A program made the translations under genes and the position numbers. A stretch of DNA of 64,000 nucleotides from Gammaproteobacteria bacterium (lineage in GTDB: Bacteria > Pseudomonadota > Gammaproteobacteria > Pseudomonadales > Halieaceae). Position 1 is the first letter of the stretch. Each line of letters opens with the position of its first letter. Location of the stretch: NCBI GenBank assembly GCA_030427085.1, contig JAUHXH010000005.1:248001-312000 (forward strand). Reading direction: 5' to 3'. Below the pieces are notes generated by a model that saw only the letters and a program-made list of their open reading frames with translations, ran no database searches and was not told where the DNA came from. Of the stretch, positions 61,753 to 64,000 are shown one piece after another.

Positions 61753-63018
61753 ATGCTGAACTGGGATGATTACCACAAGGAAGAGTCCACCGGCGACGCG
61801 GCCGTCGCCGCCAAGGCCGCTGCTGCACAGCAGGTAGCCGAATCACCGGCGGCGGAAGAATCACCGGCGCCTGTGCCGGCAGCAGAAACCATGGAAGACA
61901 CCACCTCCGTGGCCGCACCCAGCGATGCCGTCGCCGCAGCAGCCAAAGCGATTGAGGAAATGGACGTTGCCCCGGGCCTGGAAGAGTTGGAAATGGGCGC
62001 TGCTCGTGTGTCTGTCGACGAGAAGGCGATGATCAACTGTCGCGCCGACCTCAACCAGTTGGTGCCGTTCAAATACGACTGGGCCTGGCAGAAGTATCTG
62101 GATGGCTGTGCCAACCACTGGATGCCCCAGGAAATCAACATGACCGCCGACGTGGCAACCTGGAAAAGCAGCGATGGCCTGACCGAAGACGAACGCCGTA
62201 TCGTCAAGCGCAGCCTAGGTTACTTCTCCACCGCCGACTCTCTGGTGGCCAACAACCTGGTGCTGGGTATCTACCGCCTGATCACCAACCCCGAGTGCCG
62301 CCAGTACCTGCTGCGCCAGGCTTTCGAGGAAGCGATCCACACCCACGCCTATCAGTACTGCATCGAGTCACTGAGCATGGATGAGGGCGAAATCTTCAAC
62401 ATGTATCGCGAAGTGCCTTCGGTCGCCAAAAAGGCCACCTGGAGCCTGTCTCACACTCACCATCTGTCGGACCCGAACTTCAAGACGGGCACCACAGAGG
62501 CAGACCAGACCCTGCTGCGCAACCTGATCGGCTTCTACGCCGTCACCGAAGGCATCTTCTTCTACTGCGGCTTCACCCAGATCCTGTCCATGGGTCGCCG
62601 CAACAAGATGACCGGCGTAGCGGAACAGTTCCAGTACATCCTGCGCGATGAGTCCATGCACCTGAACTTCGGCATCGACGTGATCAACCAGATCAAGCTG
62701 GAAAATCCGCACCTGTGGACCGACGAGTTCAAGCAGGAAGTCATCCAGATGATTCTGGAAGGCACCCAGCTCGAAATCGAATACGCGCGCGACACCATGC
62801 CGCGCGGTGTACTGGGCATGAACGCGGCCACGATGGAGGAGTACCTGCACTTCATCGCCAACCGCCGCTTGTCCCAGTTGGGCCTGCCCGAGCAGTTCCC
62901 GGGCGCCAAAAACCCCTTCCCCTGGATGTCCGAAATCATGGATCTGCGCAAGGAGAAAAACTTCTTCGAGACCCGTGTAATTGAATACCAGACCGGGGGC
63001 GCGCTGAGCTGGGATTAA
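61753..63018 (+). CDS. nrdB: Class Ia ribonucleotide reductase small subunit
   Basis: 421 residues. The first 80 or so residues are an Ala/Glu/Pro-rich extension ([20 protein letters not shown]). The di-iron core has Asp in [10 protein letters not shown], Glu193 and His196 (EAIHTHAY) with the radical Tyr200, Glu in [11 protein letters not shown] and Glu/His in [10 protein letters not shown]. It generates the tyrosyl radical for NrdA. It follows nrdA by 58 bases. Confidence 0.96.
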
Positions 63019-63061: not shown

Positions 63062-63256
63062 ATGACTGACAGTAACAAGACCCCAAAGGACAGCGAGACC
63101 ATCATGATGGCGCTGGACCAGATCAGCCAGACCATTGACGTGATGAACAGCGTAGTGGGCCGCCTACGGCACCATGTGCAGAAGCAGGAAGCGGCTGCCG
63201 CAGAATCCATCGTCGATATCCAGGCGGAGATGCACTCGGACCGAGTGCTGCACTAA
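63062..63256 (+). CDS. Small hypothetical protein downstream of nrdB
   Basis: 64 residues, preceded by GAGAGGGA, 43 bases after nrdB and in the same direction. It is acidic-basic mixed and mostly helical (MALDQISQTIDVMNSVVGRL), and looks coiled-coil-like, with no Cys or membrane segment. Its product is not recognised. Placement suggests cotranscription with nrdAB and ending at the hairpin at 63265-63285. Confidence 0.6.
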   Translation: MTDSNKTPKDSETIMMALDQISQTIDVMNSVVGRLRHHVQKQEAAAAESIVDIQAEMHSDRVLH

Positions 63257-63378: not shown

Positions 63379-63609
63379 TCAATGCAACAGTGCGCGGCCA
63401 CCACTTACATTAAACGCGGAAGTTCTGGTGGTGTCAGAAAGCGGTATCGCTGCCATGTCTCGTTCACTCCCCCACCGCGACCAGATACTGGCCGGCTTGG
63501 GTGTACCTCCTGAAATCTGTTCAAAATGCCGGGGGTTAACGGGCTGTGCTCCCATACCTGCAGATTCAATATTCGGCACCGGGGCCTGGATCAACGATTC
63601 CTTGTTCAT
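63379..63609 (-). CDS. Candidate double-glycine leader peptide ORF 1
   Basis: 76 residues with AAGGA about 9 bases before the ATG. Residues 28-35 read HFEQISGG, like the end of a double-glycine leader cut by C39-type ABC peptidases. The remaining 41-residue segment (TPKPASIWSRWGSERDMAAI and on) is polar with two Trp, and contains a second VSGG. It matches no family I recognise. It is on the same strand as the second such ORF 68 bases upstream, and an overlapping plus-strand ORF (63428-63625) lacks this pattern. Confidence 0.45.
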   Translation of the reverse strand: MNKESLIQAPVPNIESAGMGAQPVNPRHFEQISGGTPKPASIWSRWGSERDMAAIPLSDTTRTSAFNVSGGRALLH

Positions 63610-63677
63610 CGGGCGTTTTCCTTAACGTGAATGTGGGTAGTAGCACCGACTGACTGATGCCAACCGGTGCGAGTGGT

Positions 63678-63983
63678 TTACTGAGATACGGTTTTGTTTT
63701 TGGGGCGGGGTGATGTGCCGCCGCCCCCAACTGTACTCGCGGCTCCTATTGAAGTTCCAACTCCTTGCAAAGTTACCGCAGCAACCTTGGAAACATTCCA
63801 CAGTGCACCGCCCGCTGCAAGAAAGCCTCCGGAAACGACGCCAAGCGCGGCACCCACGTATGGATTGCCACCGGAAACATAATTGCTCAGCGCACCAATG
63901 GCACCACTGGCTACCAGACCGGCGAAAGCCAGCGGGACGCCTCCTCCTGATACCAAGTCAAGGTGCTCCTGATTCAGAGGCAT
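63678..63983 (-). CDS. Candidate class II microcin-like precursor with double-glycine leader
   Basis: 101 residues from the ATG at 63983. The first 14 residues, MPLNQEHLDLVSGG, follow the leader pattern of class II microcins such as colicin V. The predicted core of 87 residues is rich in Gly, Ala, Ser and Val with GxxxG-type spacing (GAIGALSNYVSGG, GFLAAGGALW) and no Cys, as in pore-forming microcins, and ends in a basic, Ser/Thr-containing tail. The reading frame stays open upstream to the window edge without another ATG, so a longer start cannot be excluded. No immunity or export gene is in the window. Confidence 0.6.
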   Translation of the reverse strand: MPLNQEHLDLVSGGGVPLAFAGLVASGAIGALSNYVSGGNPYVGAALGVVSGGFLAAGGALWNVSKVAAVTLQGVGTSIGAASTVGGGGTSPRPKNKTVSQ

Positions 63984-64000
63984 GATGCCTCTGCTATCTT

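Follow-up and report, generated by a model that had tools for sequence, protein, structure and literature searches.

Class II microcins are recognised by a double-glycine (dG) leader of 15–18 residues ending in GG or GA, hydrophobic residues at leader positions −4, −7, and −12, a glycine content of 12–26%, a linked C39-ABC exporter (PCAT), and antibacterial activity (PMC11494933). Only ten have been characterised by experiment, most of them from E. coli (PMC9746304, PMC11494933); one published microcin survey covered Enterobacterales, Vibrionaceae, and Pasteurellaceae. In the open-access literature searched, Halieaceae and bacteriocin were not paired in any title or abstract, and microcin and Halioglobus occurred together in no paper.

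Microcin V (CvaC with CvaA–CvaB–TolC) resembles ORF1, the gene described below, and its putative exporter in the dG leader with hydrophobic residues at −12/−7/−4, the Gly-rich core, and the C39-ABC and HlyD exporter with the same spacing of the catalytic triad. Moraxella catarrhalis, like the organism analyzed here, is assigned to Pseudomonadales in current taxonomy. Its McbC (mcbABCI, PMC2761928) is similar in that its dG precursor, about 100 aa in length, carries a long leader (GG motif at residues 25–39, comparable to the long leaders of the Halieaceae relatives of ORF1), and in having a C39-type ABC exporter with an adaptor and a small immunity protein without recognisable relatives. However, mcb is a single transcribed four-gene operon, whereas exporter and peptide are unlinked here; the comparison covers organisation and leader. 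The nap island of Neisseria is likewise a small acquired region of low GC content that encodes a number of short cationic GG peptides; unlike the present locus, it includes a C39 peptidase and an outer-membrane channel, and the gonococcal Nap peptides promote autolysis and showed no antimicrobial activity (PMC11798529). GG-motif small proteins of Synechococcus, involved in biofilm control, are likewise non-antibacterial (PMC4997328).

Two Reading Frames with Double-Glycine Leaders

The window, i.e., the whole analyzed stretch of 64,000 nucleotides, corresponds to positions 248001–312000 of contig C6 in a genome of 4.19 Mb and 8 contigs from a marine bacterium assigned to Halieaceae. The two minus-strand ORFs with SGG leader ends reported in the initial annotation were present at 63678–63983 (ORF1) and 63379–63609 (ORF2). 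Read from the ATG at 63983, ORF1 encodes 101 aa with the leader end HLDLVSGG; the C-terminal 14 leader residues, MPLNQEHLDLVSGG, occupy 63942–63983. An alternative ATG lies 39 nt upstream, at window position 64022 (L002 6023), 22 bp past the window edge, so that ORF1 occupies 63678–64000 within the window. Since a GGGAG ribosome site is well placed before it, the ATG at 64022 is probably the true start; the leader, MYTESSIQDSRGIMPLNQEHLDLVSGG, would then comprise 27 residues rather than the 14 first annotated, and the precursor 114 aa in all. The predicted mature peptide (63681–63941, minus strand) has 87 aa, a mass of 8.0 kDa, a charge of about +3.8, and no Cys; glycine makes up 21.8% of this core and 19.3% of the precursor.

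ORF2, a candidate second dG precursor, lies on the same strand 68 nt behind ORF1, is preceded by the ribosome site AAGGAA, and has the leader end HFEQISGG. Its 76 aa consist of a 35-residue leader and a polar cationic core of 41 aa with 7.3% Gly, outside the class II microcin range. The residues at −12/−7/−4 are hydrophobic in both ORFs, L/L/V in ORF1 and V/F/I in ORF2, as in class II microcins.

A scan for a strict dG-leader pattern in the ORFs of 88 kb of the contig found four matches, while a second-order Markov null gave a mean of 1.0 and four or more matches in 1 of 60 simulations. From the null rate, we estimate the chance of a second same-strand match within about 400 nt at roughly 0.5%; two such neighbouring ORFs are unlikely to have arisen by chance. 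Codon scores of ORF1, ORF2, and the 91-aa membrane ORF described below fell between those of typical genes and shadow ORFs. Both ORF1 and ORF2 outscored the rival plus-strand ORFs on a coding measure; on synonymous codon use they did not, and codon statistics are neutral on whether they are genes. The plus-strand frames (63428–63625, 63710–63985, and 63694–63882), one of which the initial annotation had considered as the possible real gene, were rejected on their lower coding scores and on the existence of a homolog of ORF1.

Good scores from a first leader model were discarded because it included peptides of the same genome. In the leave-out version, built without them, ORF1 ranked second in the genome but with a weak score (E 0.95), and ORF2 was not reported. 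Searches of plasmids, Pfam, and NCBIfam, and a single-sequence search of genome_contigs, gave no homologs of ORF1; neither ORF matched any NCBIfam model at E up to 1, including TIGR03949, and ORF1 matched no family model. In the PDB, ORF1 matched designed armadillo proteins, which we took as artefacts of Ala/Gly composition, and its structure model (mean pLDDT 55) was too poor for a fold search.

Relatives, Exporter, and Cassette

Among 140 genomes of the family, one good homolog of ORF1 was found, in G065 (41% identity, E 4.9e-9), with a local alignment score of 131 against a shuffled mean of 45.5 (sd 7.5) and the shared block GGxxWNxSKVxxVTLxGxGTSIxAxS. The homolog immediately follows HlyD and C39-ABC genes. 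When the family was searched for C39 domains and the neighbourhoods of exporters of the C5 type (see below) were inspected, nine further genomes (G075, G015, G150, G152, G057, G055, G018, G008, and G074) proved to have dG peptides next to the exporter, most of them rich in Gly. Because the G065 homolog adjoins HlyD and C39-ABC genes and these nine loci are similarly organised, ORF1 is very probably a real dG secreted peptide. Leaders of the Halieaceae relatives have 22–31 residues; a more distant ORF1-like peptide from another family of the order (G154) has a leader of 15.

Several other observations were made during these searches. At the exporter locus of G075 (L075 12093–14180), three distinct dG peptides are encoded, two of which lie on the opposite strand. 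Genomes of another family of the order have dG peptides that are very short, with a leader of about 15 residues and a core of about 35 aa (L019, L020, L024, and L030, around position 1500). The best-scoring C39 matches in the family fall within frames of ~1030 aa (G048, G050, G002, and G001; L031–L034), compared with the usual exporter of 700 aa. Matches at L013, L014, L021–L023, L025, L027, and L028 were set aside, either because they belonged to frames that were long, broken, or overlapping or because they matched no leader.

ORF2 had no clear homolog among the 140 family genomes (best E 0.008). This result, its absence from the output of the leave-out model, codon scores near those of shadow ORFs, and the frequency of chance dG-like ORFs (~1 per 88 kb) speak for a chance reading frame, with ORF1 alone being a gene, an explanation that we regard as the less probable one. 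Against it are the ribosome site, the −12/−7/−4 pattern, the position behind ORF1, the short polar dG peptides with cores of 40–41 aa at three other exporter loci (G075, G057, and G055), and a weak ungapped similarity to the G055 peptide (p 0.0005, six pairs tried). On balance we lean towards ORF2 being a real secreted-peptide gene, a plausible reading with weak support; motif, ribosome site, and position fit this second peptide of the initial annotation, which lacks a clear homolog.

No exporter or HlyD gene was detected near ORF1 in the 24 kb fetched past the window edge, for the first 14 kb of which ORFs were listed. A genome-wide search with PF03412 gave one match, a C39-ABC exporter of 707 aa on contig C5 (L006 8901–11024), preceded by an HlyD adaptor gene (L006 7681–8919). 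Its Cys/His/Asp triad is intact (ECGLACL, HWDLNHF, and IVDPARG) and matches the triad spacing of CvaB (PMC3335142), the His-to-Asp distance being identical. We found no dG peptide beside this exporter. A third dG precursor of the genome is encoded on the plus strand of contig C3 (L011 9568–9849), near an IS3-type transposase; it matches TIGR03949, the class IIb bacteriocin model of the lactobin A/cerein 7B family (29.2 bits, cut-off 21.5), and its homologs (38–57% identity) adjoin exporters in five other Halieaceae genomes. On this gene content, a single exporter is available to two or three unlinked putative precursors, although its natural substrates could be others, including the C3 peptide alone.

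The initial annotation had suggested that an exporter, an HlyD-like protein, and an immunity gene might lie beyond the window edge, and that the lack of an exporter within about 15 kb would speak against the locus. Only a small membrane ORF appeared at the position guessed for immunity; the exporter is indeed missing over that distance. As a refutation, this is too strict, because the G065 homolog stands beside an exporter and an unlinked exporter is present on C5.

The left flank of the ORF1 cassette comprises a plus-strand gene at 61753–63018, which we take from its sequence to be an nrdB-like gene for the ribonucleotide reductase small subunit, and a linked 64-aa ORF (63062–63256, plus strand). 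On the minus strand past the window edge, just upstream of ORF1, comes a 91-aa ORF that contains several hydrophobic stretches (L002 6125–6400; ribosome site AAAGGTAGG), followed by an 83-aa ORF inside the same cassette with a good ribosome site (L002 6418–6669), yqcC/DUF446, and a DinG-like helicase. Neither the 91-aa nor the 83-aa ORF had a detectable homolog in the fetched loci, and homology of the former to the small membrane ORF of G065 is not claimed, since at 23% identity and a shuffle p of 0.028 the match ranked below that of another membrane protein used as a control. Small membrane-type ORFs adjoin dG peptides in most relatives too, and the 91-aa product is a candidate immunity protein.

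Genome G006 retains the order nrdB, the conserved 64-aa ORF, yqcC, dinG without the cassette; the gap between the 64-aa ORF and yqcC is about 90 bp there versus about 1.5 kb in our genome. The cassette interval has a GC content of 51% compared with 60.5% for the window. The cassette was probably acquired as a unit by horizontal transfer; the comparison rests on one relative, G006, which may instead have lost it.

Class Assignment and Possible Function

Measured against class II microcins, ORF1 has the GG end, the hydrophobic leader positions, and a glycine content within 12–26%, whereas its exporter is on another contig (C5 versus C6); the G065 homolog has the linked exporter. The leader, for which class II microcins have 15–18 residues, would have 14 or, judged by the ribosome site, 27, depending on the start. 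ORF1 also has what characterises the broader kind of dG peptides with C39-ABC exporters: a dG leader, a small precursor, kinship to an exporter-adjacent peptide, and, in the same genome, an exporter with an intact triad and an HlyD adaptor. We assign it to this broader kind, as a peptide predicted to work like a class II microcin and not filed as a strict member. The class II microcin-like character initially proposed is borne out by the homolog beside a C39 exporter, the conservation of the leader type in relatives, and the Gly-rich Cys-free core. The kind of system is already known, the sequence of ORF1 is new, and its relatives occur across Halieaceae.

We consider it likely that the locus is a class II microcin-like cassette that has no exporter of its own and relies in trans on the one encoded on C5. 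The cassette of ~1.5 kb, inserted between the 64-aa ORF next to nrdB and yqcC, would encode ORF1, the candidate immunity protein, and possibly ORF2. The leader of the ORF1 precursor would dock in the peptidase domain of the only C39-ABC protein of the genome and be cut off after SGG; the exporter, together with the adaptor and an outer-membrane channel of the TolC type, would then release the cationic, Gly/Ala-rich, Cys-free peptide of 8 kDa. The most likely target of the peptide would be the inner membrane of related competitors, into which it would insert, and the 91-aa membrane protein would protect the producer. ORF1 with its leader features, the exporter-adjacent homolog, the intact-triad exporter in the genome, and the cassette-free relative are supported directly; processing, export in trans, membrane or antibacterial activity, and immunity we infer from sequence. 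The unlinked exporter, for which the C3 precursor could be the sole dG substrate, the single clear homolog of ORF1, the weak leave-out leader score, the neutral codon statistics, and the 91-aa ORF without detectable homologs in the fetched loci or significant similarity to the G065 membrane ORF all count against this reading.

Alternatively, the peptides might be secreted through the dG pathway but, instead of serving as weapons, affect the producer population itself by controlling biofilm or causing autolysis. Non-antibacterial GG peptides are published (PMC4997328, PMC11798529), and the Naps, too, are a set of short cationic peptides encoded in an island of low GC content; the Gly/Ala-rich core with its adjoining small membrane ORF, the examples of McbABCI and the class II microcins, and the match of related same-genome peptides to bacteriocin models nevertheless fit bacteriocins better, and we judge action on the producer unlikely. 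The absence of an exporter here, while the G065 homolog has one beside it, would also be expected of a decayed remnant, a full microcin cluster that lost its exporter and whose peptide is no longer secreted. Yet neither ORF1 nor the membrane ORF is disrupted, both have good ribosome sites, and the genome retains a complete C39-ABC/HlyD pair, which makes such decay quite improbable.

Beyond the trans-served cassette, we tentatively propose, as a rather doubtful extension, that Halieaceae have a recurring two-type system in which a Gly-rich microcin-like peptide and a short polar cationic dG peptide share one exporter that can also serve scattered exporter-less cassettes in trans. If so, the short polar partner (ORF2 and the peptides of G055, G057, and G075) would act either as a signal or as a second effector. 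Given cassettes without an exporter, members of this kind will escape any search that demands a linked one, and the ORF1 locus together with its relatives suggests that marine Halieaceae possess a repertoire of such peptides throughout the family.
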